Positions 146-16,767 of a stretch of 49,630 bases of DNA are shown here, one piece after another; within the stretch, counting starts at the first letter, position 1; the number at the start of each line of letters is the position of its first letter. The position numbers were made by a program, and so were the translations under genes. The notes beneath the pieces are model-generated. The model did not search any database and was not told the DNA's origin. It saw only the letters and a list, made by a program, of their open reading frames with translations. Where the stretch lies: NCBI GenBank assembly GCA_022340315.1, contig JAJDOD010000095.1, positions 1 to 49,630 of the forward strand. Direction: 5' to 3'. This stretch comes from Silicimonas sp. (lineage in GTDB: Bacteria; Pseudomonadota; Alphaproteobacteria; Rhodobacterales; Rhodobacteraceae).

Positions 146-352
146 ATGCTGACCGCCGGAGTCGTGGTCGTCGAACCGACCGGCGCCGATACCGAGTTGT
201 TCCTCAAGATCGGCGAGACTCGTTTCACCGTAACCCTGCGCGGCCGCGCCTCTGCCAAGCCGGGCGAGCGCATCGGTTTGAACTACGACACCGGCGCGGC
301 CCACCTGTTCGACGCCGAAAACGGCCTTCGGCTCGACTTGCCAGCCAGCTAG
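146..352 (+). pseudogene. MalK/UgpC-type ABC ATPase, C-terminal TOBE fragment
   Basis: From MLTAGVVVVEPTGADTE through HLFDAENGLRLDLPAS the frame matches the last TOBE segment of sugar-type ABC ATPases, where a VEPTG strand and a closing HLFD..G.RL motif are standard. Only about 68 residues remain. The Walker A, signature and Walker B region is missing, and the in-frame sequence upstream (bases 17-140) does not resemble an ATPase. Its TAG stop overlaps the fahA stop on the other strand in a shared CTAG. The ATG at 146 is only the first in-frame ATG inside the homologous part; I do not claim it is translated. A truncated gene is the simplest reading; an assembly join is possible. Confidence 0.6.
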
Positions 353-1581
353 CGCAATACACGGGAAGGCAGAAGCTTGCCAGAGCACTCGCCGAAGCCG
401 ATCTGGAAACCGTTGCCCAGTGCCGCGCCCCTCAGCGTCAGGGTGTCACCATCCTCGATAAACGTTCGGGTCCCGCCGTCGATCTCGATAGCTTCCCTGC
501 CGCCCCAGCTCATCTCCAGCAGCGACCCCCGGCTTGCCTTGCCCGGCCCCGAAATCGTGCCCGAACCCAAGAGGTCACCCACCCGCATCGGGCAGCCCGA
601 CGAGCTGTGGTGCGCAAGTTGCTGAGCGGTGGAGTAGTACATCTCGCGGAAATTCGTGCGCGAGATCACCGTCTCGCGCCCGCCCTCGGGCGTCAGTCCG
701 ATCTCAAGCGCGATGTCGTAGTTCATCGGCCCCGGCTCCGCGAGATAAGGCAAAAGCGGCAGTTCGCGTTCGGGCGGAGCGACGCGGAACGGCTCGAGCG
801 CTGCGGCGGTGACGATCCAGGGCGAAATCGTGGTGGCGGTCGCCTTGGCCTGGAAGGGGCCGAGAGGCTGGTATTCCCACCCCTGAATGTCGCGGGCCGA
901 CCAGTCGTTGAGGAGCACGAAGCCGAAGATGTTGTCGAAGGCCTCGCCCACCGCCAACGGCCCGTCCGAGGCCTGCCCGACCACGGCCCCCATCTCCAGT
1001 TCGATGTCGAATCGCCGGGAAGGCCCGAAGCGCGGCACCTCGTCATTCGGGCCCTTCAACTGGCCGTGCGGCCGCCTCACCGGCGTGCCCGAAACCACTA
1101 CCGACGAAGCGCGTCCGTTGTACCCGATGGGAATGTGCAGCCAGTTTGGTGGCAGAGCGTTCTCGGGCCCGCGGAACATCGAGCCGACGTTGAAGGCGTG
1201 GTTCCGGCTTGCGTAGAAGTCTGTGTACTCCGCGACCGTGAAGGGCATGTGCAGCCTGGCATTTTCCAGGGCAACCAGGTCGCCGGGGCGGGGCGGTTCG
1301 CCTTCGGACAGAAGCCTGGTCAGTTCGGTGCGAAGCCGCGCCCATTCCGCGAGCCCGCGCTCCATGAAACTGTTCCAGCTTCCCGTGCCCAGTGTCCCGC
1401 CGAAGTCGAGCACTCCCTCGGTTTCCAGCGCTGCCAGGTCGAGGATGCTGTCTCCGATCGCGGTCCCGCAGCGGGGTGCGCCGCCGTCCGTCGAGAATAC
1501 CCCGTACGGCAGGTTGTTGAGCGGAAAGTTGGTTTCGGGCGCATTGGCGCTCTCGACCCAGGAGCGGATCAGGTTGGTCAT
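349..1581 (-). CDS. fahA: Fumarylacetoacetase
   Basis: Hydrolyses 4-fumarylacetoacetate to fumarate and acetoacetate, the last step of the homogentisate branch of phenylalanine/tyrosine catabolism, in the cytoplasm. The 410-residue product matches the usual length of about 420. It has the family landmarks: an N-terminal NNLPYGVFS segment, DFYASRNHA, a FGPSRRFDIELEMGAVVG metal-site strand, NDWSARDIQGWEYQPLGPF, and a C-terminal GDLLGSGTISGP turn. I start at MTNLIRSW because ggagaaaat precedes it; the longer ORF-track start has no family support. It is the last gene of hmgA-maiA-fahA, 10 bases after maiA. Its stop overlaps that of the convergent ABC ATPase remnant. Confidence 0.95.
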   Translation of the reverse strand: MTNLIRSWVESANAPETNFPLNNLPYGVFSTDGGAPRCGTAIGDSILDLAALETEGVLDFGGTLGTGSWNSFMERGLAEWARLRTELTRLLSEGEPPRPGDLVALENARLHMPFTVAEYTDFYASRNHAFNVGSMFRGPENALPPNWLHIPIGYNGRASSVVVSGTPVRRPHGQLKGPNDEVPRFGPSRRFDIELEMGAVVGQASDGPLAVGEAFDNIFGFVLLNDWSARDIQGWEYQPLGPFQAKATATTISPWIVTAAALEPFRVAPPERELPLLPYLAEPGPMNYDIALEIGLTPEGGRETVISRTNFREMYYSTAQQLAHHSSSGCPMRVGDLLGSGTISGPGKASRGSLLEMSWGGREAIEIDGGTRTFIEDGDTLTLRGAALGNGFQIGFGECSGKLLPSRVLR

Positions 1582-1591
1582 ATTTTCTCCG

Positions 1592-2221
1592 TCAGGTGGC
1601 ATCTGGCTGGTTTTCAGGGCGCGCCGCGTCGAAGGCGGCAAGGGCAAGGCAGTGGGTTTCGATCTCGATCAGACGGTCGAACGGGCCAAGGTCACAGCCC
1701 CAGCGGTGCGCATTGTATAGCTGCGGTACCAGGCAAAGATCGGCCAGCCCCGGCGCATTCCCGAAACAGAACGCGGTGTCCGGCGCGATAAGCTTCGAAA
1801 AGGCGGCAAAGCCCCGCGTCATCCAGTCGTTCATCCAGGCGGCGGCTGCCTCCTGGTCGTGCCCCATCTCCTTGAGTTTCTGCACCACGCGCAGGTTGTT
1901 TACCGGATGCACGTCGGTCGCGATTCCTAACGCAGCGGCCCGCACTTCTGCCCGCTTGACGGGGTCGGCGGGCAGAAGTGCGGGGTCGGGACGAGTCTCC
2001 TCCAGCCAGTCGAGGATCGCCATTGACTGCGTCAGTACCGTGCCATCTTCCAGCACCAGCGTCGGCACGCCCAGTCCGGGGTTCAGCGCTGCGTATGCCT
2101 CGGTCTGCTGCTCACCCGCGGCCAGATTGACCGCCACCGTCTCGTAACCCACGCCCTTGAGGTTCAACGCGATCCGGACCCGGTAGGACGTTGTCGACCG
2201 CCAATAGGTGTAAAGCTTCAT
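1592..2221 (-). CDS. maiA: Maleylacetoacetate isomerase (zeta-class GST)
   Basis: Isomerises 4-maleylacetoacetate to fumarylacetoacetate, probably using glutathione, between HmgA and FahA. The 209 residues form a two-domain glutathione transferase: an N-terminal thioredoxin fold ([20 protein letters not shown], then [10 protein letters not shown] and [13 protein letters not shown]) and an all-helical C-terminal half with the [25 protein letters not shown] signature of maleylacetoacetate isomerases. The zeta-class SSC motif reads STTS here, so the usual cysteine is absent; my recollection is that this variation is common in bacterial homologues. Its ATG overlaps the hmgA TGA in an ATGA, indicating translational coupling. 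Confidence 0.93.
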
Positions 2222-3573
2222 TTCTCACCCGGCGCGCCGTCGAACTTCTTCTCCAGCGTCGCCCAGACGTCGATGTAGTCCTCTTGCAGCGGCGCTTCTT
2301 TCCCTGCGAATTTCGTCAGGTGCTGGGGGAAGCGCGTCTCGAACATGAACGACATGGTATTGTCCAGCTTTTCTGGCTTAAGCTCGGCATTGGACGCGCC
2401 CTCGAAGGCGTTTCGGTCCGGCCCGTGCGGCAGCATCATGTTGTGGAGCGAAAGTCCCCCCGGCACGAAGCCCTTCGGTTTGGCGTCGTACTGACCGTAG
2501 ATGTTGCCCATCAGCTCGGACATGACGTTCTTATGGTACCAGGGCGGGCGGAACGTGTCCTCCATCACCATCCAGCGCTCGCGGAAGAGCACGAAGTCGA
2601 TGTTTGCTGTGCCGGGAACCCCCGAGGGCGCGGTCAGCACGGTGAAGATCGACGGGTCAGGGTGGTCGAACAGGATCGCGCCAACCGGGCAATAGGTGCG
2701 CAGGTCGTACTTCAGCGGCGCATAGTTGCCATGCCAGGCCACCACGTCCAGCGGCGAATGCCCGATCTCGCAGCGATGGAACTGCCCGCACCACTTGACC
2801 GTCACCGTGGAAGGCGCTTCGCGGTCTTCGAACGCCGCCACGGGCGCCTTGAAGTCGCGCGGGTTCGCCATGCAATTTGCCCCGATCGGCCCGCGCCCCG
2901 GCAGTTCGAACTTTTGCCCGTAGTTCTCGCAGACGAAGCCGCGCGCCGGTCCCTCCAGCAATTCGACGCGGTAGACAAGACCGCGCGGGATGATTGCGAT
3001 CTCCTTCGGCTCGATGTCGATGATCCCGAGCTCGGTGGCAAAGCGCAGTTTGCCCTCCTGCGGGATCACCAGAAGCTCGCTGTCGGCCGAGAAGAAATAG
3101 TCGTCGTGCATGCTTTCGGTGACCAAATAGATGTGACTTGCCATGCCGGTCTGAGTATTCACGTTTCCCGCCGTGGTCATCGTGCGCATGCCCGCGATCC
3201 AGGTAAGCGGCGCATCGCTGTGCGGCACCGGGTCCCAGCGATACTGGCCCAGCGAGGTGACGTCGTCGACGATGTTAGGCGCCGATTTCCAATAGGGAAC
3301 TTCGATCTTCACGTAGCGGCTTGAATGGTTCACCGAAGGCCGGATGCGATAGCACCATGTCCGCTCGTTCTGGTGCGCGGGCGCGGTGAAGGCAGTGCCG
3401 GAAAGCTGCTCGCCATAAAGTCCATAGTTGCATTTCTGTGGGCTGTTTCTGCCGCGTGGGAGCGCGCCCGGCAATGCTTCGGTCTCGAAGTCGTTGCCGA
3501 AGCCGGGCATATAGCCTGGCGTGGTCGCGGTGCTTTCGGCCTGGATCATCACGCCGGGTTCGTAGTTGGTCAT
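2218..3573 (-). CDS. hmgA: Homogentisate 1,2-dioxygenase
   Basis: Fe(II) ring-cleavage enzyme converting homogentisate plus O2 to 4-maleylacetoacetate. The 451-residue product (family about 440) starts at MTNYEPGVM, with ggaggag upstream. Family blocks are complete: [35 protein letters not shown]-like [15 protein letters not shown], the cupin region [29 protein letters not shown], and the metal-ligand region [15 protein letters not shown] followed by [12 protein letters not shown]. First gene of the hmgA-maiA-fahA operon. Its promoter region holds repeated TTCGTT/AACGAA inverted repeats shared with the divergent marR gene, so MarR control is likely. Confidence 0.96.
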
Positions 3574-3596
3574 CGCGCTTCTCCTCCGGGACAATA

Positions 3597-3670
3597 TCGT
3601 TGCAAACGAAACGAAATACCAGTCGCAGATCCTTGCGCGAAAATCAAGTTCATTTCGTTTGCAACGAAAT
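3597..3670. promoter_or_regulatory. Probable MarR operators in hmgA-marR divergent promoter
   Basis: Bases 3652-3670 read ATTTCGTT-TGC-AACGAAAT, a perfect 8-bp inverted repeat with a 3-base spacer. Bases 3597-3609 carry a shorter version, TCGTT-GCA-AACGA, followed directly by another AACGAAAT half-site at 3610-3617. A third, degraded copy (catttcactcgaaacgaact) lies at about 3711-3730, just before marR. The repeats fall between the divergent starts of hmgA (3573) and marR (3741), where a MarR dimer would control both. Binding is inferred. Confidence 0.7.
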
Positions 3671-3740
3671 AGCTGCGCATCGGCATTGCGGCGCGGTGTG
3701 GAATCCATATCATTTCACTCGAAACGAACTCGAGTCTGCC

Positions 3741-4216: not shown

Positions 4217-4816
4217 CTACATGTCGAGGAACACTGTTTCGCCGTCGCCTTGCAACCGGATATCGAACCGGTAGGATTCGCCCCCCTGTGCCCTGGCAAT
4301 CATCGTCTCGACACGCGGGCGCTGCTCGATCCGCGAAAGAACCGGGTCGGTGGCGTTGTCTTCGTCGCTGAAATAGATTCGGGTCGAAAGCCCAACATTT
4401 ATCCCCCGCGCCACGATCCAAATCGCGATATGTGGCGCCTGCATCCGTCCGTCGCGCATTGCCACCCGCCCCGGCTTCACCGTGCGCAGCGTGAACTCAC
4501 CCGTCGTGCCATCAGCGGCGAAGCGGCAGAAGCCCGTCACCGCCGGGTCGGCGTTCGGCTGACCGGCATAAATCCCCGAAGCATCCGCCTGCCAACTTTC
4601 TAGGAGCGCGTCGCGCATTGCCCAGCCCGTGCCATCATAGACGCTGCCGGTGATGGTGATGACCTTGCCTTTTGCACCCTCCGAGATGGGCGATCCGCCA
4701 AGGTCCTCGGGATAGATGGCGCCAAGTCCGGCGAAAGTCGGAATGCAGCCGATGTGAACGTAAGGCCCGGCGGTCTGCGAGGCGGTCTCGGTGAGGGTCG
4801 TCAGTTTCTGCGTCAT
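4217..4816 (-). CDS. pcaG: Protocatechuate 3,4-dioxygenase, alpha subunit
   Basis: Alpha subunit of the intradiol dioxygenase that opens protocatechuate to 3-carboxy-cis,cis-muconate. The 199 residues begin LTETASQTAGPYVHIG, the conserved N-terminal strand. They include GSVYDGTGWAMRDALLESWQADASGIYAG, the RTVKPG strand, and APHIAIWIVARGINVGLSTRIYFSD. As in other alpha subunits, the iron-ligand tyrosines and HIH pair are not all present, which fits its non-metal structural role. It follows pcaH by one base, so the two are co-translated. It is the last gene of the nine-gene minus-strand aromatic operon. The ATG at 4816 is used since ggagggg precedes it. Confidence 0.95.
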   Translation of the reverse strand: MTQKLTTLTETASQTAGPYVHIGCIPTFAGLGAIYPEDLGGSPISEGAKGKVITITGSVYDGTGWAMRDALLESWQADASGIYAGQPNADPAVTGFCRFAADGTTGEFTLRTVKPGRVAMRDGRMQAPHIAIWIVARGINVGLSTRIYFSDEDNATDPVLSRIEQRPRVETMIARAQGGESYRFDIRLQGDGETVFLDM

Positions 4817-4817
4817 C

Positions 4818-5555
4818 TCACATCCCCTCCGGGCGGTTCTCAAAGAAAGTCTGGCGCCGGCCACGCAGCACGATGTCGAACTTGTAGGCCAGGAAATCCA
4901 TCGGTTTCGCCCGGCTCATGTCGAGCGGCGCTACCAATTGCTCGATCTGCCCCCGGTCCTTGATCGTCGCCACGATGGGGCAGCGGTCGATCAGCGGATC
5001 GCCCTCGAAATACATCTGGGTGATCAGCCGCTGCCCGAAGGCCCGCCCGAAGACCGAGAAGTGAATGTGCATTGGCCGCCAGTCATTCCCACGGTTCGGC
5101 CAGGGGTAGGCTCCTGGCCGGATGGTCAGGAACTGGTAGTGCCCTTGCACATCGGTCAGCGTCCGCCCGCAGCCGCCGAAGTTCGGGTCAAGCGGCGCGA
5201 AATAGGTGTCCTTCAAGTGGCGGTAGCGTCCGCCCGCATTGGCCTGCCAGATCTCGACCAGCGTTTCCGGCACCGGCCGCCCGGTTTCGTCCAGCACGCG
5301 TCCATGCACAAGGATGCGCTCGCCCACCGCGGGCGCCTCGCCCTTGGTCCAGTTCAGGATCAGGTTGTTGTCGAGCGTCCCTATCACCCCGTGACCGAAG
5401 ACCGGCCCGGTCTGCTCGGTCACAGTGCTGTCGAGCGACAGCAAGGGGAGCGAGGGCGCCCTCGTCATCGTCGTCTTGTAGCCCGGATCGTAGGGGTCGG
5501 GATGCACCGCGCGGTTGCGCGGGATCAGGGGCAGGGTGTCATAGTCGTCGGTCAT
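4818..5555 (-). CDS. pcaH: Protocatechuate 3,4-dioxygenase, beta subunit
   Basis: Catalytic, non-haem Fe(III) subunit. The 245 residues carry the four expected iron ligands: a tyrosine in KDTYFAPLDPNFGG, a tyrosine in RPGAYPWPN, and the two histidines of RPMHIHFSVFG. The substrate-binding region around RGNDWRPMHIH and QLITQMYFEGDPLIDR is also intact, and the N-terminus RNRAVHPDPYDPGYKTT is typical of the beta subunit. Twelve bases separate it from pobA upstream, and pcaG follows by one base. PobA supplies protocatechuate, so the operon can take 4-hydroxybenzoate to carboxymuconate. The next enzymes (pcaB, pcaC, pcaD) are not in the window. Confidence 0.96.
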   Translation of the reverse strand: MTDDYDTLPLIPRNRAVHPDPYDPGYKTTMTRAPSLPLLSLDSTVTEQTGPVFGHGVIGTLDNNLILNWTKGEAPAVGERILVHGRVLDETGRPVPETLVEIWQANAGGRYRHLKDTYFAPLDPNFGGCGRTLTDVQGHYQFLTIRPGAYPWPNRGNDWRPMHIHFSVFGRAFGQRLITQMYFEGDPLIDRCPIVATIKDRGQIEQLVAPLDMSRAKPMDFLAYKFDIVLRGRRQTFFENRPEGM

Positions 5556-5567
5556 GGTCCTCGCTCG

Positions 5568-7696
<2,129 letters not shown>

Positions 7697-7703
7697 GGCC
7701 GCC

Positions 7704-9008
7704 TCAGTTTATCATGGTGTTCGGGAGGAAGAGCGCGATCTGCGGGAAGGCGATCAGGATGGCGAGTGCCACCAGCATCATCACCCAGAACAGGACGACG
7801 CCCGAGAAAATCTGTCCCAGCGGTACGTTCGGCGCGACGGACTTGACGATAAAGACATTCAGCCCGACCGGTGGCGATATCAGCCCCATCTCGAGTGCCA
7901 GAACGACGAGAACGCCGAACCAGATCGGGTCGATGCCCATGTTTGTGATGATCGGAAAGAAGATCGGCAGGGTCAGCACCAGCATCGCGAAGCCTTCGAG
8001 AAAGCAACCGAGGATGACATAGATCGCGAGGATCACGACCAGCACGCCCGTCGGGCCGAGGTTCAGGTTTTCCATGAAGGCGCCGACTGCCTCCGGAATG
8101 TGACTCAGTGCCATGAAAGGGTTGATCATGTGGGCCGCGATCAGGATCAGCATGACCGTCGCTGTGGTCACCACGCTGTCCTTTGCCGCCGCCCACAGCT
8201 GGCGCAGACCGAGCGTGTGCGTAACGACCCCGATAAGGATCACGGCCGCCGCGCCCACCGCCGCCGCTTCGACCGGCGAGAAGAGCCCGCCATAGATACC
8301 GCCTATCGTCAGCATGATGATCGCGCCGATTGGCCCCGCACCGCTGATGGCCCGCAACTTCTCGCCGAGAGATGTCGACGGGCCCGCGGGTCCGTAGTTC
8401 GGCCGGATCCAGCAGAGGATGGTAACCGCCATCACGAACAGCCCAAGCAGCAGGATGCCGGGAAAGACGCCGGCAAGGAACAGCCGCCCGATGGATTGCT
8501 CGGTCAGGATGGCGTAGATCACGAAGCCCGTGGACGGAGGGATCAGGATGCCAAGCGTGCCGCCGGCTGCCACCACTCCGGTGGAGAGCCGTGGGTCGTA
8601 GTTGAAGCGGTCCATCTCGGCCAGCGCGACCTTGCCCATTGTCAGGGCCGAAGCGACCGATGATCCGGAAAGCGCGGCGAACCCGCCGCAGCCGATAACG
8701 GTTGCCGATGCCAGGCCGCCACGGACCGATCCGATGATGGCATATGCCGCGTCATAGAGCCTCCGGCTCATGCCCGTGATCGAAGCGACATTGCCCATCA
8801 GGATGAAGAGCGGCACCACCACCAGTTCCGGCGAAGACCCCAGGGTATAGGCCTCGGATGCCAGCAGGCTCACGGCGGCGTTCACGCTGTTGAGATGGAC
8901 GATGCCGAAAAAACCGACGACGAACATCGCGAAGGCGACGGGGATGCGCAGCACCAGCAGCACGAAAAGCGCAACGATGCCGAGGAGGCCGGCGGCGGAC
9001 GCGCTCAT
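7704..9008 (-). CDS. TRAP transporter large permease (DctM-like)
   Basis: A 434-residue inner-membrane protein of about a dozen hydrophobic segments. It matches the DctM channel subunit: GFGG-like GCGGFAALSGSSVASALTMGKVALAEM, TGVVAAGGTLGILIPPSTGFVIYAILTEQSIGRLFLAGVFPG, and the C-terminal GLISPPVGLNVFIVKSVAPN. It uses the sodium gradient to import an organic acid delivered by the DctP protein. Its ATG overlaps the dctQ stop (ATGA), so P, Q and M form one unit. Location in an aromatic operon suggests the cargo is an aromatic carboxylate such as 4-hydroxybenzoate or a methoxylated benzoate (inference). Confidence 0.93.
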   Translation of the reverse strand: MSASAAGLLGIVALFVLLVLRIPVAFAMFVVGFFGIVHLNSVNAAVSLLASEAYTLGSSPELVVVPLFILMGNVASITGMSRRLYDAAYAIIGSVRGGLASATVIGCGGFAALSGSSVASALTMGKVALAEMDRFNYDPRLSTGVVAAGGTLGILIPPSTGFVIYAILTEQSIGRLFLAGVFPGILLLGLFVMAVTILCWIRPNYGPAGPSTSLGEKLRAISGAGPIGAIIMLTIGGIYGGLFSPVEAAAVGAAAVILIGVVTHTLGLRQLWAAAKDSVVTTATVMLILIAAHMINPFMALSHIPEAVGAFMENLNLGPTGVLVVILAIYVILGCFLEGFAMLVLTLPIFFPIITNMGIDPIWFGVLVVLALEMGLISPPVGLNVFIVKSVAPNVPLGQIFSGVVLFWVMMLVALAILIAFPQIALFLPNTMIN

Positions 9009-9508
9009 TCAGCTTCTCCCTTGCGAACGTCGTAGCCGCGGATTGCCAGTTCAGCCGATCTCAGGGCCATGCCGAACGCGGTCAGCAGGCAGAAGGCAAC
9101 CAGCGCCCACTGTGTCCATGCCTTTGGTATATAAAGAAGATTGGTTGAAAGATTGAGCATCACCGACAGCTTGGCGCTCTGCCAGACCGCCCAGGCCAGT
9201 GCGACGAAGATAACCGCTCCAAGGGCGGCGGCGATCACGTCGATAGCGCGGTTCATCGCCGGCGGAAAGTTCTGCTCGAAAAGATCGACTGCGACGTGCC
9301 CGCCGTTGCGGTCGCAAAGCGCCATCGCCCCGAAGACGAGGATCACCATCGCCGTCATGGTCATGTCCTGAGAGCCATAGAGCGGGCTTCCGAATGCACG
9401 ACCGACAACGTCGATCAGGATCACGACGACCTGGAAAAGAAGCCCCAGGCCGCCGATGGACGCGGACAGGCCAATAAGCCCGTCCGCGATTTTCCTTGCT
9501 GCGTTCAA
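9005..9508 (-). CDS. TRAP transporter small permease (DctQ-like)
   Basis: A 167-residue protein with four hydrophobic helices: GLLFQVVVILIDVVGR, MTAMVILVFGAMAL, VIFVALAWAVWQSA, and WALVAFCLLTAFGMAL. These carry the DctQ landmarks DVVGRAFGSPL, GGHVAVDLFEQNFP and the late TQWALVAFCLL segment. It pairs with the DctM channel. The ORF-track start at 9508 is a TTG with only a weak gagcgg upstream, nine bases after the dctP stop; I accept it because the first helix would otherwise be lost. It overlaps dctM by four bases. Confidence 0.88.
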   Translation of the reverse strand: MNAARKIADGLIGLSASIGGLGLLFQVVVILIDVVGRAFGSPLYGSQDMTMTAMVILVFGAMALCDRNGGHVAVDLFEQNFPPAMNRAIDVIAAALGAVIFVALAWAVWQSAKLSVMLNLSTNLLYIPKAWTQWALVAFCLLTAFGMALRSAELAIRGYDVRKGEAE

Positions 9509-9517
9509 CGCGACCGC

Positions 9518-10489
9518 TCAGTTGTTGAGCGCGTCGAAAACCGACTGGCCGCCGACCTCGTCGACATAGGCTTGCGTGACGGGGGCGGTCAGCGCGTCGA
9601 AGGCCGCGATTTCCTCGGCGGTGAGATCGACGAAGGTATTCTTGGCGTCGCCGCGCGCGCGTTCGGTTCCGGCCACACCAGTGGCATTCCAGGCGGATTC
9701 CGCGTTGTTCGACACTTCACAGCGATAGTCGCCGCTGAGTTTCGCTTTCGCCTCATCCGGGAGCGCGTCGAAGGTCCCGGTGTTCATCGCTGCGAAGAAG
9801 CCGAGGCTGCCAAGCGGGGCGCCGATGGTGAAAGCGTTCGCGACCTCGTCCAGCTTGAAGTCGTCGAGCGTGGACGAGCCCGTGAATACGCCGTCGATCA
9901 GGCCGGTTTCAAGCGACTGGTAGACCTGGTTGATCGGCATCTGCACCGGAACAGCGCCAAGGGCCTCGACCACCTTGCCCGCAGTCGCGCCTGCCACGCG
10001 GATCTTGAGGCCCGCCAGGTCCTCCGGCTTGCGGATCACCTTTTCGCGCATGATCATGATATTCGGCTCGGACGACCAGAGCGCCACCGGAACGGTGCCG
10101 GGAAACTCGCCGCTGATCTCGTCGAAGACCTTGCAATAAGCGTCCGCCCCGGACATGCCCGTCGGGACCGCGCCCGGCAGTTCCATGATCATCGTTTTCT
10201 GGAACTGCGACGAGGTATATCCCTGCAACCCCCAGGTAATGTCGGCTGCGCCCTGAACGGCCCGCACGTATTGCTCGACCGGACCGGCACCCAATTCGCC
10301 GCCGTGATAGCCGCGTACCGTTACCGCGCCACCGGTCGCCGCGGACAGATCGGCGTTCAGCTTTTCGATGACACTGGCATTCACCGTATGTGCCGGCGAC
10401 GTGAAATTCGCGAATTTCAGCTCTTGCGCGTTTATGGCCGTTGCAGAGACCGCAAGAGCGCCCGCAAATGCAATTGAGTTCATTTTCAT
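9518..10489 (-). CDS. TRAP transporter substrate-binding protein (DctP family)
   Basis: A 323-residue periplasmic binding protein with a short Sec signal (MKMNSIAFAGALAVSATAINA, cleavage probably before QELKFAN). DctP-family blocks follow: a first strand LKFANFTSPAHTVN, GGELGAGPVEQYVRAVQGAADITWG, LAGLKIRVAGATAGKVVEALGAVPVQMPINQVYQSLETGLIDGVFTGSS. The arginine of KIRV is where family members salt-bridge the carboxylate of the ligand. Start chosen for ggagg six bases before the first ATG. It lies between the O-demethylase gene (89 bases upstream) and dctQ, so an aromatic or other organic acid is the probable cargo. Confidence 0.92.
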   Translation of the reverse strand: MKMNSIAFAGALAVSATAINAQELKFANFTSPAHTVNASVIEKLNADLSAATGGAVTVRGYHGGELGAGPVEQYVRAVQGAADITWGLQGYTSSQFQKTMIMELPGAVPTGMSGADAYCKVFDEISGEFPGTVPVALWSSEPNIMIMREKVIRKPEDLAGLKIRVAGATAGKVVEALGAVPVQMPINQVYQSLETGLIDGVFTGSSTLDDFKLDEVANAFTIGAPLGSLGFFAAMNTGTFDALPDEAKAKLSGDYRCEVSNNAESAWNATGVAGTERARGDAKNTFVDLTAEEIAAFDALTAPVTQAYVDEVGGQSVFDALNN

Positions 10490-10578: not shown

Positions 10579-11988
10579 TTACGCGGATTTCGCCCGCCAG
10601 CTGTCGGCTGCATAAATTTCGCGTGCGTCAGATGAATAGGGCGTCGGCGACACCCGGACACGGATCTCGGCCTGCTTGTGTTTCTCGGTCGAAGTCTTCG
10701 CCGTGTCGTCGGGCTCACCCCATCGCAGGGTAAGAACATCGCCGATTTCGACGCTCTGATCGACCACTCCGAGTGAAAGCATGCAGCGCTCGTTGTAGCT
10801 GTAGCCGTTGAACATCGACATGCCCACCATCTTGTCGCCCTGCATCACCATGTCGGCCGACGAGGAGGCATAGTTCGGCTGCGGGAAGTCGATCCACTTG
10901 TAGTGCTCGGCGCCCGGCACGAAGGCCGAGGCGATGACTTTCACTACGTCTTCGGCGTTCCACTCGAAGGTTACCTTCTTGCGGTTGGTCTTGCTCCCCC
11001 TCATCGCCGCCAGAGCAGATTTCCCGATGAAATCTTCCTTCTTCCAGCCGATGTAGAAATCGTAACCCAGTTCGAACGGGTTGACGTAATAATCCTCGAT
11101 ATTGTCGCTGACAAAGCTGCCGCCGATGGCGCCCGCCGCCTCGTACATCTCCGAACCCAGCCAGTCGCGGTAATCCGCCATCATGCCATCGCCCGTGTAG
11201 ATGCCCGGTAGGGGCGAGGGGATCCAGCCCGACTCGAGCGTGTTCGTCGAATAGGCGCGGCTGCCGCACTGAACCAGCTTCACGCCCGCATCGCGCGCGG
11301 CCTGCAGGATGGTCGCGTTTATGTAATTCTTGTCCTCGTAAGGTCCCCAGACCTCCAGCCCAGGCGCACCCGACATGCCGTGGCGTAGCGCCTGCACCTT
11401 CTTCGATCCGATGTTGATCCAGTCGACATGGAAGAACTTGATGTCGGGGATCGGTCCGCCGTTCATCTTTTCGAAGATCGCCGGCGCGTCCGGCCCCTGG
11501 ATTTGGTAGCGGTAATGCGTCCGCAGAACCCGCTCGCCCTCGGGGCGGCTGGTCGAGCGCGGGTCATGCTTGATCCGCACGTTCCACTTCCCCCAGGCGG
11601 CGCAGAACATCAGCCAGTTCGAAGTCGGCGCGCGGCCAACGAGGATGAACTTGTCCTCGCGCTCACGGAAAATGATGTGGTCGCCGATGACATAGCCCGC
11701 CGGGGTGACCGGCACGAAGTGCTTGGCGCGGTTGAGGCTGAGATTCGAGAAGCTGTTGATCCCGTGATGGGCTAGGAATGCCTCGGCCTGCGGCCCCTCT
11801 ACGATCAACTCGTCCATGTGGTGAGACTGGTCGAAAAGCACCGCCGTTTCGCGCCAGGCCCGCTGCTCGTCCCGCCAGTTTGCAAATTCGGGCGTCACGA
11901 CCGGATAGACATACATACCGATTTGCGAGTTGCGAAGCATCTCGACGGGGTTCTTGTGTTTGGCCATCACATCGGACAGGCTCGGCAT
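10579..11988 (-). CDS. Tetrahydrofolate-dependent aromatic O-demethylase (LigM/DesA type)
   Basis: A 469-residue GcvT-fold protein. The length and sequence (MYVYPVVTPEFANWRDEQRAWRETAVLFDQSHHMDELIVEGPQ, HYRYQIQGPDAPAIFEKMNGG, the VWGPYEDKNYINATILQAARDAG region, MSMFNGYSYNERCMLSLGVVD) fit LigM/DesA, which move the methyl group of vanillate, syringate or 3-O-methylgallate to tetrahydrofolate. True glycine-cleavage T proteins are about 100 residues shorter. In this operon it would feed pobA/pcaHG products or the extradiol enzyme with dihydroxy rings. The exact methoxy substrate is not readable. Directly downstream of gntR (19 bases) in the same transcript. Folate genes to recycle the methyl group are not in view. 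Confidence 0.85.
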   Translation of the reverse strand: MPSLSDVMAKHKNPVEMLRNSQIGMYVYPVVTPEFANWRDEQRAWRETAVLFDQSHHMDELIVEGPQAEAFLAHHGINSFSNLSLNRAKHFVPVTPAGYVIGDHIIFREREDKFILVGRAPTSNWLMFCAAWGKWNVRIKHDPRSTSRPEGERVLRTHYRYQIQGPDAPAIFEKMNGGPIPDIKFFHVDWINIGSKKVQALRHGMSGAPGLEVWGPYEDKNYINATILQAARDAGVKLVQCGSRAYSTNTLESGWIPSPLPGIYTGDGMMADYRDWLGSEMYEAAGAIGGSFVSDNIEDYYVNPFELGYDFYIGWKKEDFIGKSALAAMRGSKTNRKKVTFEWNAEDVVKVIASAFVPGAEHYKWIDFPQPNYASSSADMVMQGDKMVGMSMFNGYSYNERCMLSLGVVDQSVEIGDVLTLRWGEPDDTAKTSTEKHKQAEIRVRVSPTPYSSDAREIYAADSWRAKSA

Positions 11989-12007: not shown

Positions 12008-12742
12008 TTACTCTGAAGTCACCAGCGCCAACCCCGGAATGCGGGTTGCAAGGTGCGGTTCTGCCTTTGTCAGGAATGCGAAATTGTTGCGTGCGAGCCG
12101 CGCATGCTCGCGCGCGACACTTTCGGCACGGGTGCCTTCACCGTCACGGATCGCTTCCAAAATCGCCCGATGCTGGCCCTGCGCGCGAATGAGCGAGCGC
12201 ATGAAGTCCGGCACAAGGTCCTGCTCACGCAAGAATGCAGTGGGCGAAGCCAGCGGCAGGCGGTTTACCCGCTCAAGCTCGCGCTGGATGACCGCGCTTC
12301 CCGGCAGTTTCGCCAGCAGATTGTGAAACTTTCCGTTTAGCCGGACATAGGTGGGAAAGTCGATGTTGGCCGGTTCTGCGACAGAACGATCAAGCCCCTC
12401 GAGGAGTGCCTCGCCCTGCGCCAAAAGCTCGGGGTCGGCGCCGCGCTCGGCCGCCAGGCGCGCGGCAGTTCCCTCGATGACGCCGCGAAGTTCGATCGAG
12501 TCGCAGATGTCGTCGATATCGAGACTGGTGACACGGCAACCTCCGCTTTCAGCCCGTTCCAGCAGTCCCTCGGCAACCAGCGTGTCCATCGCCTGCCGCA
12601 ACGGTGTACGGGAGGTGCCAAGCCGCTCGGCCAACGCCACCTCCCGCAAACGCGTGTTCGGATGGAATGCGCCTTCCATAATGAGCGATCGCAAGCCAAT
12701 CGTGGCCTTCTCCGCCTGACTGACGCGCTCGGCTTTGCTCAT
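12008..12742 (-). CDS. GntR-family (FCD) regulator of the aromatic operon
   Basis: A 244-residue FadR-type GntR regulator. The N-terminal winged helix spans FHPNTRLREVALAERLGTSRTPLRQAMDTLVAEGLLERAESGGCRVTSLD, and the C-terminal FCD ligand domain contains DICDSIELRGVIEGTAARLAAERG, NGKFHNLLAKLPGS and HRAILEAIRDGEG.RAESVAREHARLA with the histidines that hold metal or ligand. The start at 12742 has ggggagg upstream. It opens the minus-strand operon and faces the ald/hydroxylase operon across two TGTATACA sites, a word typical of FCD-GntR operators. It probably represses both units until an aromatic ligand binds (inference). Confidence 0.9.
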   Translation of the reverse strand: MSKAERVSQAEKATIGLRSLIMEGAFHPNTRLREVALAERLGTSRTPLRQAMDTLVAEGLLERAESGGCRVTSLDIDDICDSIELRGVIEGTAARLAAERGADPELLAQGEALLEGLDRSVAEPANIDFPTYVRLNGKFHNLLAKLPGSAVIQRELERVNRLPLASPTAFLREQDLVPDFMRSLIRAQGQHRAILEAIRDGEGTRAESVAREHARLARNNFAFLTKAEPHLATRIPGLALVTSE

Positions 12743-12800
12743 TGTCCTCCCCAGGATACACGCATCCGCTTCTACGTACGCGTCGCAGTTAGGACTACAA

Positions 12801-12870
12801 TGTATACAATTATTCGTCAATCTAGGCTGTTTTGAACAAAATGACCTTCGAAGTTGTGAAATTGTATACA
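12801..12870. promoter_or_regulatory. Paired GntR operators TGTATACAAT / ATTGTATACA
   Basis: Bases 12801-12810 read TGTATACAAT and 12861-12870 read ATTGTATACA, exact reverse complements of each other. Each contains the perfect 8-bp palindrome TGTATACA. They are about 62 bases apart, in the divergent region between gntR (12742) and the aldehyde dehydrogenase gene (12987). TTGTATACAA-like words are typical targets of FCD-type GntR repressors. Two sites on one DNA stretch could let the repressor control each promoter separately or by looping (inference). Confidence 0.75.
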
Positions 12871-12986: not shown

Positions 12987-14426
12987 ATGAACGCAAGCGC
13001 GGGGCCGGCACGACATTTCATCGGCGGCGAATGGATCGCCGAAGGCGCGCTGGCAGACAGCCTCGACCCGGCCACGCTTTCCCCTGTGGGCCAATACCAT
13101 CCCGGCAGTGCAGAACTTGCTGAGGCTGCCGCGAAACGCGCCCGAAGCGCCTTTTTCGAGTCTCCATGGGCGCAGTCGCCGCGCCTCCGCGCCCAGACGC
13201 TCTACGAGATGGCCGATCGTCTCGAGGCCGCGAAGGACGAGATCGCGGATCTTGTCACCGCCGAGAATGGCAAACTGAGGCGCGAGGCGATGGGCGAGAC
13301 GATGGGCGCGATCTCCGAGACCCGTTACTACGCCGGACTCGCCCGGAACATCCGCGGCACAATGCAGGAAACCGCGCCAGGCAACCTTTCGCTATTTCAC
13401 CGCGAACCAGCAGGCGTCGCTGGCATCATTGTTCCCTGGAACGCCCCGGTAACGCTGCTCATGCGCTCACTTGCCCCGGCGCTCGCAGCAGGCTGCACTA
13501 CGGTCATCAAGCCCGCCCAGCAGACACCGCTTTCGCACGCCCGCATCATTGAGGCGCTCGCTGCCGCGCCATCGCTTCCACCCGGCGTCCTGAACTCGGT
13601 GAACGAGAACGGCATCGAGGTCGGCCGCGCCATGACAGCCTCGCCGGATATCGACGTCATCAGCTTCACCGGGTCCAGCCGCACCGGACAGGCCATCATG
13701 GCAGCCGCCGCGCCGACGCTGAAACGGGTTGGCCTAGAACTTGGCGGCAAGGCCCCGGCGGTGATCTACGACGACGCCGATCTCGACCTCGCCGTGCGAG
13801 AACTGACCCACGGCTCGCTTGCGATGGCGGGCCAGATCTGTGTCGCTGCCGCGCGCTACCTCGTCCACGAGAGCGTCGCGCAGGATTTCGAGAGCCGCAT
13901 CACCGCCGCCTTCCGCGCCGTGAAAACCGGCCCCGGCAACGATCTGACCAGCGAGATGGGCAGTCTCATCGACTTCGACAATCTTACCCGCGTGGAACGC
14001 CTGATTGAACAGGCGGGCGACGAGGGCAAACTGCTCCTGAAGGGCGAGAGGCTGGGGCAGGGGGCCTTCCTGACGCCGACGCTCTTCCGCATCGAAGACC
14101 TCAATTCGCAGCTTGTACAGGAAGAACTCTTCGGTCCGCTGGTGTCCATCGAAAGCTTCACCGACGAAGCCGAGGCTGTCCACAAGGCCAACGCCACCGC
14201 CTACGGCCTCGCCGCTTCCGTCTTCACCTGCGACGGCCCACGCGCCATGCGCACTTCCCGCGCCATCCGGGCGGGAACGGTCTGGATCAACTCACATCTC
14301 CGTCTATTCGCCGAGGGCGAGACCGGCGGCTACGGCAAGTCCGGCCTCGGCCGGCTGCACGGGCCAGAGGGTCTCCACGACTTCCTCGAAACCAAGCACA
14401 TCTACATGGAAAACGGCACGGTATGA
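12987..14426 (+). CDS. NAD(P)-dependent aldehyde dehydrogenase
   Basis: A 479-residue ALDH-superfamily enzyme oxidising an aldehyde to a carboxylate. It contains the Rossmann region AGIIVPWNAPVTLLMRSLAPALAAGCTTVIKPAQQTPLS, FTGSSRTGQAI, the catalytic glutamate in RVGLELGGKAPAVIYDDADLD, and the nucleophilic cysteine in AMAGQICVAAARYLVHESV. C-terminal QEELFGPLVSIESF and INSHLRLFAEGETGGYGKSGLGR are normal. I start at MNASAGPARHF because gggagcgg lies six bases upstream and the homology begins there. First gene of a plus-strand operon, overlapping the hydroxylase by ATGA. An aromatic aldehyde such as vanillin is plausible but unproven. Confidence 0.92.
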   Translation: MNASAGPARHFIGGEWIAEGALADSLDPATLSPVGQYHPGSAELAEAAAKRARSAFFESPWAQSPRLRAQTLYEMADRLEAAKDEIADLVTAENGKLRREAMGETMGAISETRYYAGLARNIRGTMQETAPGNLSLFHREPAGVAGIIVPWNAPVTLLMRSLAPALAAGCTTVIKPAQQTPLSHARIIEALAAAPSLPPGVLNSVNENGIEVGRAMTASPDIDVISFTGSSRTGQAIMAAAAPTLKRVGLELGGKAPAVIYDDADLDLAVRELTHGSLAMAGQICVAAARYLVHESVAQDFESRITAAFRAVKTGPGNDLTSEMGSLIDFDNLTRVERLIEQAGDEGKLLLKGERLGQGAFLTPTLFRIEDLNSQLVQEELFGPLVSIESFTDEAEAVHKANATAYGLAASVFTCDGPRAMRTSRAIRAGTVWINSHLRLFAEGETGGYGKSGLGRLHGPEGLHDFLETKHIYMENGTV

Positions 14427-15997
14427 GCGACCGCTATGATGTCCTCATAAATGGAGGCGGTCCTGTCGGAATCGGCCTCGCGCTTGAACTCGGCCAGCGT
14501 GGCATCCGCACATGCGTTATCGAGAAGTCTACCGAACCCGGCCCGATCCCCAAGGGCCAGAATCTAACCCAGCGCACCTGCGAGCACTTCCGCGCCTGGG
14601 GCTGCGAAGACCGTGTCCGAGCGGCACACGACATACCAAAGGGCGGCGGCATCGGTGGCATGACCACCTACGGCACGCTGCTTTCCGACTACCATTACGA
14701 CTGGCTCAACCGCGCCCATGTGAACGCTTACTACTTCGCAGCCAACGCCCGCCTGCCGCAATACGCCACCGAACGCGCGCTCCGCGCCCGCGCCGCCGAG
14801 CTTGACTGCGTCGACACGCTTTACGGCTGGGAAGGCACCGCCCTTGCGCAGGACGATAGCGGCGTGACGCTGACGATCCGCGACCGCGACACCGGCGAGG
14901 CCCGCGATCTCCGCGCCGCCTACCTCGCCGGGTGCGACGGCAGCCGGTCCTTCACCCGCGAGGCCGCCGGGATCACCGAGACCCGCGCCGAACACAACCG
15001 CCTCATGGCGCTCGTGCTCTTCACCTCGACCGAGCTGCACGAACTTCTGCAACGCTATCCCGGAAAGGCCTTCTACAACGTCCTGCACCCCGACTTCGAA
15101 GGCTACTGGCAGTTCTTCGGCCGCGTCGATCACGGGCGGACATGGTTCTTCCACGCGCCCGTTCCCTTCGGGACCAGGCCGGAGAACTTCGATTTCTCCG
15201 CACTTCTGAACAGCGCCGTCGGCCAGCCCTTTGCTCACCGGATCGACCACATAGGCCTCTGGGACCTCCGAATGTCGTTGGCCGACAGCTACCGGCAAGG
15301 CCGCGTCTTCATCGCCGGGGACGCCGCCCACAGCCACCCGCCCTATGGCGGCTTCGGCGTGAACATCGGCTTCGAGGACGCCCGCAACCTCGGCTGGAAA
15401 CTCGCCGCCACGCTGCAGGGCTGGGGCGGCCCAGAGTTGCTCGACAGCTACGAGGCCGAGCGACGCCCCCTCTTTCGTTCGACCTCCGACGACTTCATCG
15501 AGCGCTACATCACCGACGACCGAGCGTTCCTCGAAACCCACGATCCCGCACAGGACCGCGCCGCCTTCGAGGCCGCCTGGTCCACCCGCAACCTCGACGC
15601 TGACGACGTGCTGGCCTTCGAGCCCAACTACGAAGGCTCGCCCGTGATCGGCGGCGAAGGTACCCCCTCGGCGCGCGGATCGCACAGCTTCAAGGCCCGC
15701 CCCGGCCACCTCTTGCCGCCGCCCGGGCCGGGCAACGACCCGGCCGTGCTCGCCGCCCTCGGCACGGGCTACGCGGTTCTCGGCGACGAGACCCTCCGCG
15801 CCGAGTACCAGGCCGTCGCCCGTACCCTCGGCATCCGCCTCACGACCGCCCCCCTCGAAAGCGCCTGGCGTGACGCCTACCAGACCGACGCGCTCCTCCT
15901 CCGCCCCGACCGTTTCATCGCATGGACGGCAGGGCAGAGCGGCACACCCGATGACGTTCTCCGCTGCGCCGCAGGTTTCCCGAAAGGCACCCCATGA
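14423..15997 (+). CDS. FAD-dependent aromatic hydroxylase (PheA/TfdB/MhpA type)
   Basis: A 524-residue class A flavoprotein monooxygenase. It carries the FAD motif DVLINGGGPVGIGLALELGQRG, the DG motif LAGCDGSRSFTREAAGI, and the GD motif RVFIAGDAAHSHPPYGGFGVNIGFEDARNLGWKLA, followed by the Y-E-AERRP helix and a C-terminal region where phenol hydroxylases keep a thioredoxin-like fold. Such enzymes hydroxylate phenolic rings with NAD(P)H and O2. Length and motifs separate it from pobA. It is translationally coupled to both neighbours (ATGA overlaps at 14423 and 15994). It may create the catechol used by the extradiol dioxygenase of the divergent operon (inference). Confidence 0.88.
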   Translation: MSDRYDVLINGGGPVGIGLALELGQRGIRTCVIEKSTEPGPIPKGQNLTQRTCEHFRAWGCEDRVRAAHDIPKGGGIGGMTTYGTLLSDYHYDWLNRAHVNAYYFAANARLPQYATERALRARAAELDCVDTLYGWEGTALAQDDSGVTLTIRDRDTGEARDLRAAYLAGCDGSRSFTREAAGITETRAEHNRLMALVLFTSTELHELLQRYPGKAFYNVLHPDFEGYWQFFGRVDHGRTWFFHAPVPFGTRPENFDFSALLNSAVGQPFAHRIDHIGLWDLRMSLADSYRQGRVFIAGDAAHSHPPYGGFGVNIGFEDARNLGWKLAATLQGWGGPELLDSYEAERRPLFRSTSDDFIERYITDDRAFLETHDPAQDRAAFEAAWSTRNLDADDVLAFEPNYEGSPVIGGEGTPSARGSHSFKARPGHLLPPPGPGNDPAVLAALGTGYAVLGDETLRAEYQAVARTLGIRLTTAPLESAWRDAYQTDALLLRPDRFIAWTAGQSGTPDDVLRCAAGFPKGTP

Positions 15998-16767
15998 CAG
16001 ACCAGACCCGCCACGCCCTCGTCACCGGCGCAGCCTCGGGCATCGGCCGCGCCACCTCACTCCGCCTCCGCGCCGACGGCTACCGCGTCACCGCCATCGA
16101 CCGCGCCGACCCGGGCGAGGCCGCCGATGCCTGGTACCCGCTCGACCTCGACGACCCGACCGCCAACCTCTCGCCGATCCCCGGCCCGATCCACGTCCTC
16201 GTCAACGCCGCCGGACTGCCGCCCCGCCCCGGCACCGAGGCGCAGATCCTGCGCGTCAACTTCCTCGCCCTCCGCCGCCTGACCACCGCCTTGCTGCCGC
16301 ACCTTGCGGGCGGAGCCAGCATCGTCAACATGGCCTCCAAGGCGGGTGCGAAATGGCAGGAGAACATCGCTCAGGTCAAACGCCTCCTCGAAATGCCCGA
16401 CACCGACCGCCTAGACGCATTCGTGTCGCGGGAGGGTATCGACCCGGTTCGCGCCTACGACCTTTCTAAGGAAGCGGTTATCGTATGGACCAAGGCGTTG
16501 ACCGGCCAGTTGATCGAACGCGAAATTCGCATGAACTGCGTGAGCCCTGCCGCCGTCGAAACGCCGATCCTGTTGGATTTCATGTCTGCCTTTGGCGAGC
16601 GTGCGGCCCGCGGCGTGAAACTCTCCGGCCGCTCCGGCACGCCCGAAGAAGTCGCCGCAGTCATCGCCTTCCTCGCAAGCCCTGACGCATCCTGGGTCAA
16701 GGGATGCAACATCGAAGCCGATGGAGGCCTGACTGCGCAACTCGACTCCGTGAAATTTCTCGACTGA
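15994..16767 (+). CDS. Short-chain dehydrogenase/reductase
   Basis: A 257-residue classical SDR. Cofactor motif is ALVTGAASGIGRATS, and the second motif reads VLVNAAG in place of the usual NNAG. The active site has the serine strand SIVNMASKAGAKW and the tyrosine-lysine pair in RAYDLSKEAVIVW. An insertion of about 30 residues lies between serine and tyrosine (NIAQVKRLLEMPDTDRLDAFVSREG). This, with the overall length, recalls the 3-alpha-hydroxysteroid dehydrogenase/carbonyl reductase group, but the substrate cannot be read off. C-terminal SPAAVETPIL and GCNIEADGG are normal. Third gene of the ALDH-hydroxylase-SDR operon. Confidence 0.87.
   Translation: MTDQTRHALVTGAASGIGRATSLRLRADGYRVTAIDRADPGEAADAWYPLDLDDPTANLSPIPGPIHVLVNAAGLPPRPGTEAQILRVNFLALRRLTTALLPHLAGGASIVNMASKAGAKWQENIAQVKRLLEMPDTDRLDAFVSREGIDPVRAYDLSKEAVIVWTKALTGQLIEREIRMNCVSPAAVETPILLDFMSAFGERAARGVKLSGRSGTPEEVAAVIAFLASPDASWVKGCNIEADGGLTAQLDSVKFLD

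Follow-up and report, generated by a model that had tools for sequence, protein, structure and literature searches.

A putative double operator with whole-turn spacing at the gntR-ligM promoter of Silicimonas sp. and its relatives

Atu1419 of Agrobacterium fabrum is a structurally solved, tetrameric repressor that recognizes the operator ATGTATACAT, with its residue R45 reading the operator G (PMC7797058). Two operators lie in the atu1418-1419 region, one of them between the -35 and -10 boxes of atu1419; Atu1419-DNA loops were visible by electron microscopy, tetramers were also bound separately to each site, and the proposed effector is 5,10-methylene-tetrahydrofolate (PMC7797058). Looping by a tetrameric GntR protein has so far been proposed from this one protein and one main spacing. 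In Sphingobium sp. SYK-6, vanillate and syringate catabolism, including ligM, is controlled by DesR, which belongs to the MarR family and not to GntR (PMC6888825). Here we analyze a 49,630-nucleotide stretch of Silicimonas sp. (Rhodobacteraceae; assembly GCA_022340315.1, contig JAJDOD010000095.1; hereafter the window), where two copies of the palindrome TGTATACA lie upstream of a gntR gene that is followed by ligM. Based on comparisons of sequence, we consider it likely that the two palindromes are a double operator of the operon gntR-ligM-dctPQM-VOC-pobA-pcaHG, bridged by an Atu1419-type tetramer.

The 10-bp words TGTATACAAT (12801-12810) and ATTGTATACA (12861-12870) are exact reverse complements, as the initial annotation of this DNA had reported, and the full exact inverted repeat extends to 11 bp (TGTATACAATT, 12801-12811; AATTGTATACA, 12860-12870). 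The palindromic core that it had described within each word is the 8-bp TGTATACA, at 12801-12808 and 12863-12870, and its estimate of about six helical turns holds as well: the centre-to-centre distance is 62 bp, or 5.9 turns at 10.5 bp per turn. We refer to the two repeats as the putative proximal operator (12801-12811, minus strand) and the putative distal operator (12860-12870, plus strand). Under a dinucleotide-Markov model, the 244 bp of intergenic DNA are expected to contain 0.0002-0.0025 8-mers of this kind, so that the probability of finding two there by chance is a few per million or less. Pattern searches of the 3.33-Mb assembly (86% complete), from which all our genome-wide counts come, located TGTATACA in three places, two of them being this pair, compared to 14 places for the reversed word used as a control; WTTGTATACA has no occurrence elsewhere. 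Sites with up to one mismatch, the exact ones included, number 143 across the assembly, fewer than the control's 242, and no further regulon emerged from them. The third exact copy (G000:C49:1391; L033:1391) lies within a DctM-like gene, and we discounted it as a probable chance occurrence. The exact mirroring amounts to three flanking bases around a self-palindromic core and is lost in relatives (for example, locus L054); we therefore rejected mirror symmetry as a functional feature, and the conserved features are the core and the spacing. A literature search for TGTATACA together with GntR returned no match.

The adjacent regulator (12008-12742, minus strand) has a GntR winged-helix domain at its N-terminus (PF00392, 54.9 bits) and an FCD domain at its C-terminus (PF07729, 66.1 bits), both scoring over the cut-off. 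Among solved proteins, Atu1419 is by a wide margin its closest relative (6z74; phmmer E-value 1.6e-55, ~46% identity). The window protein shares with Atu1419 eight residues that show no variation in 20 orthologs (R45, R86, Y133, N137, H141, H192, H214 and N221 in Atu1419 numbering), and thus the zinc site (Asn137/His141/His192/His214) and the shared ligand residues (Arg86/Tyr133/Asn221) are all kept. By homology, the window GntR is an Atu1419-type regulator of the FCD/VanR group, and the sites are very probably its operators.

We scanned 397 genomes of the family blindly for two exact cores separated by a gap of 45-65 bp. Such a pair is present in 18 genomes; in all 18 a gntR ortholog lies beside it, and ligM is adjacent in 17 (within the fetched 3 kb). 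A second scan with gaps of 66-96 bp gave seven genomes, in which the cores are 74, 83, 84 or 104 bp apart, and a close gntR ortholog adjoins three of these seven pairs; at one of the three (L065) the pair is located 3′ of gntR, before ligM. In a sample of 80 loci retrieved independently, by GntR sequence alone, the exact pairs below 150 bp are spaced by 52 (three loci), 62 (19), 63 (10), 64 (one), 74 (four), 83, 84, 105, 136 and 146 bp, with one more exact pair at 282 bp. The usual order in these loci is gntR-ligM-dctPQM, often with pobA. The suggestion of the initial annotation that the sites fit a GntR regulator is supported by the Atu1419-type homology, the ATGTATACAT operator and the family-wide co-occurrence of pair and ortholog. 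A separate arrangement was seen in a relative at L062:1501-1602, where three exact TGTATACA cores lie 84 and 10 bp apart and the window gntR is unmatched in the fetched 3 kb.

Below 150 bp, the spacings fall on whole helical turns. After merging similar upstream regions with a 60% filter, which removes relatedness in part, we retained 74 nonredundant loci, some of whose pairs hold a one-mismatch site. Their spacings (52, 62-64, 73-74, 83-85, 105, 116, 136 and 146 bp, all <150 bp) correspond to 5, 6, 7, 8, 10, 11, 13 and 14 turns, with a phase coherence of R = 0.935 at 10.5 bp, and of 0.93 when the six-turn class is left out (n = 20). When each turn class contributes one spacing and the period is allowed to float between 10 and 11 bp, 8 of 20,000 random sets are equally coherent. 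The GntR protein tree requires no fewer than 18 switches between turn classes, an approximate figure because branch support is mixed.

The position of the proximal site relative to the promoter is also fixed. Of 83 distinct proximal sites from relatives, aligned with that of the window, 40 have a TTGACA-like box that starts exactly 12 bp ahead of the core and 47 have one within 1 bp of that offset (background elsewhere, 0-4), while 48 carry a TA at +11 from the core, give or take 1 bp. The offset of this hexamer places the predicted -35 box of the window's gntR-ligM promoter at TTGACG (12812-12817, minus strand), and the TA of the relatives points to a weak -10 box, TAGTCC (12789-12794, minus strand), across a 17-bp spacer. 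Because both boxes recur at fixed offsets in the relatives, the proximal operator is predicted to fill the spacer of a sigma-70-type promoter.

In the mechanism that we propose, the gntR-ligM-dctPQM-VOC-pobA-pcaHG operon would be autoregulated for vanillate demethylation, with GntR acting as the repressor. One GntR dimer would occupy the proximal site in the -35/-10 spacer and directly exclude RNA polymerase, and a second dimer would bind six turns further upstream, at the distal site, which lies on the same helical face. The two dimers would be joined as a tetramer, with the intervening DNA bent or looped and repression tightened. While methoxylated aromatics are being demethylated, the DNA would be freed by a ligand held beside the zinc of the pocket; as proposed for Atu1419, the most likely candidate is 5,10-methylene-tetrahydrofolate.

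The genes under this putative control all lie on the minus strand, in the order gntR-ligM-dctP-dctQ-dctM-glyoxalase/extradiol-superfamily gene-pobA-pcaH-pcaG, and are separated by short gaps, the largest (89 bp) ahead of dctP. The first after gntR is ligM (10579-11988), encoding a tetrahydrofolate-dependent vanillate/3-O-methylgallate O-demethylase (NF047885, 618 bits, cut-off 580; phmmer E-value 7.6e-159 to 5x1i). It is followed by the three components of a tripartite ATP-independent periplasmic (TRAP) transporter, namely the solute-binding protein DctP (9518-10489, PF03480), the small permease DctQ (9005-9508, PF04290) and the large permease DctM (7704-9008, PF06808). Between dctM and pobA, beside the ortho-cleavage genes pcaHG, sits a gene for a glyoxalase/extradiol-dioxygenase-superfamily protein (6734-7696; PF00903, PF22247). 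The pobA gene (4-hydroxybenzoate 3-monooxygenase, 5568-6734) matches TIGR02360 over the cut-off from residue 130 of a 517-residue open reading frame, where the glyoxalase-like gene ends; its true start is therefore placed near 6734 and not at 7121. The last two genes, pcaH (4818-5555, TIGR02422) and pcaG (4217-4864, TIGR02423), encode the beta and alpha subunits of protocatechuate 3,4-dioxygenase, both over the cut-off. Beyond pcaG lie fumarylacetoacetase and homogentisate 1,2-dioxygenase genes (349-3708, minus strand), so that the operon is flanked by a second pathway for ring cleavage.

Several observations weigh against the proposed tetramer, its folate ligand or the generality of the double site. 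Residues 123-125, the tetramer-interface loop of Atu1419, are not conserved, although the whole-turn spacing speaks indirectly for a tetramer. The mobile-loop ligand residues Ser169/Lys175/Arg183 are Thr, Gln and Arg in the window protein, and K175 and R183, which touch citrate in one orientation, vary across the orthologs (Gln in 18 of 20 at position 175). As neither the interface loop nor the mobile-loop residues are fully kept, the subunit number and the effector proposed for the window GntR are inferences. A metF gene was not found in the window, and the sole PF02219 match of the assembly lies on contig C124, although metF linkage characterizes the A. fabrum locus and not the protein itself. 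Only a single site is present at some gntR orthologs. Finally, pairs at 152, 299 and 310 bp outside the family are out of phase, and the whole-turn rule is therefore limited to short pairs.

Part of this evidence bears on the effector. With the same regulator and sites, the effector could be vanillate or a different aromatic acid and not a folate, an alternative that we find possible but somewhat doubtful. The unlinked metF and the two variable citrate-contacting residues would agree with it, as would the orthologs (43-56% identity) that, in other alphaproteobacteria, adjoin a Rieske vanA instead of ligM. The invariant core residues of the pocket argue against an aromatic ligand, and the vanA linkage is itself compatible with folate, since formaldehyde from the Rieske reaction can form methylene-tetrahydrofolate. 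The LigM product is 5-methyl-tetrahydrofolate, and both it and the formaldehyde released by the Rieske enzyme can feed the methylene-tetrahydrofolate pool; a folate signal common to the ligM- and vanA-linked orthologs is therefore plausible. Two further arrangements were seen outside the ligM-linked loci. At L126, L129, L140, L152, L158 and L160, where the ortholog adjoins vanA, TGTATACA pairs 84-310 bp apart, some of them out of phase, lie near the vanA start, ~0.8-1.3 kb upstream of gntR. In Rhizobium leguminosarum, the strand opposite to that of the ortholog carries a metF homologue upstream of it (L142:4800-5681, minus strand), much like atu1418 in A. fabrum.

The initial annotation had gone further and proposed that one GntR protein governs two divergent operons. 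On the other side of the pair, the plus strand carries an aldehyde dehydrogenase gene (12987-14426, PF00171), a flavin adenine dinucleotide-dependent aromatic hydroxylase gene 3′ of it (14423-15997, PF01494 and PF21274) and a short-chain dehydrogenase gene (15994-16767; best NCBIfam match, the coniferyl-alcohol dehydrogenase subfamily NF009092 at 233 bits, below its cut-off of 242). These genes are plausible for aromatic catabolism, the aldehyde dehydrogenase start lies 116 bp past the distal site, and homologues of the hydroxylase and the short-chain dehydrogenase adjoin gntR in L043 and L056. The two sites of Atu1419 likewise serve the divergent atu1418 and atu1419 promoters (PMC7797058). 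Across the relatives, by contrast, the pair is equally common whether the upstream neighbour of gntR is divergent (41 loci) or codirectional (41 loci; approximate gene calls), and its distance to gntR is similar in both cases. The sampled upstream genes are unrelated (named by eye from their sequences, they include AraC-like regulators, permeases, an aminotransferase-like protein, TauE-like transporters and others). In Marivita the codirectional upstream gene ends so close to the distal site (within ~10 bp) that a second promoter would not fit. Read divergently, the distal site is preceded by a comparable -35 box in 0 of 39 divergent cases, and a search of the window for an aldehyde dehydrogenase promoter gave nothing convincing, its best guess being weak and downstream of the distal site. 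Because upstream orientation and genes vary, the pair appears to belong to the gntR-ligM promoter and not to be kept by the divergent aldehyde dehydrogenase gene, and we rejected the marking of divergent promoters as its main role. Control of the O-demethylase/PobA operon is well supported; the claim that the geometry serves to tie both operons into one regulon is not supported by these comparisons. It is possible that the aldehyde dehydrogenase/hydroxylase operon is also controlled by the pair, and we consider co-regulation with one site per promoter to be unlikely.

For the gntR-ligM promoter itself, each of two dimers could occupy its own same-face site, either independently or through simple cooperativity, and no tetramer would then bridge them. 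The unconserved interface loop is in keeping with such separate dimers, as are the electron micrographs of Atu1419 tetramers on each site separately (PMC7797058). Independent binding does not require the whole-turn phasing that extends from 52 to 146 bp, and a direct contact between dimers could hardly span these distances. We therefore regard separate dimers as rather improbable. That the palindromes are a chance occurrence with no regulatory role is scarcely credible, given their genome-wide rarity, their conservation beside the same regulator and their fixed promoter position, and we found no support for it.

Taken together, the comparisons suggest a more general proposal that we advance tentatively. 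In the Rhodobacteraceae and their neighbours, a tetrameric GntR protein with operators a whole number of turns apart (5-14, mostly six) may repress vanillate demethylation by bending the DNA upstream of its promoter or drawing it into a short loop, and the signal that it senses may be one-carbon folate flux and not the aromatic substrate. If so, these alphaproteobacteria may adjust the demethylation of lignin acids to one-carbon flux. Dozens of natural promoters provide a spacing series that steps by whole turns, as looping or same-face bridging predicts.

Among described regulators, NanR of Escherichia coli is also a GntR repressor that places several dimers on an operator region, though its three dimers bind a contiguous (GGTATA)3 repeat, whereas the window has two palindromes that are whole turns apart (PMC8012715). 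The likeness to Atu1419 is much closer (PDB 6z74, 6za0, 6za3, 6za7 and 6zab; PMC7797058). The two proteins share membership of the FCD/VanR group of GntR regulators, the operator core TGTATACA, the zinc and shared ligand residues and an arrangement of two operators with one inside the -35/-10 interval of the regulator's own gene. The pathway under Atu1419 control includes a tetrahydrofolate-using O-demethylase (PMC7797058), and ligM adjoins the window gntR. The differences lie in the spacing and in the genes served. The sites of Atu1419 serve atu1418, a putative methylene-tetrahydrofolate reductase gene, and atu1419, and atu1420 has an additional site (PMC7797058), whereas in the window metF is unlinked and ligM, the TRAP transporter, pobA and pcaHG directly follow gntR. 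The operators of Atu1419 are 190 bp apart (PMC7797058) and those of the window 62 bp, and this shorter, phase-locked pair makes the looping proposal testable.
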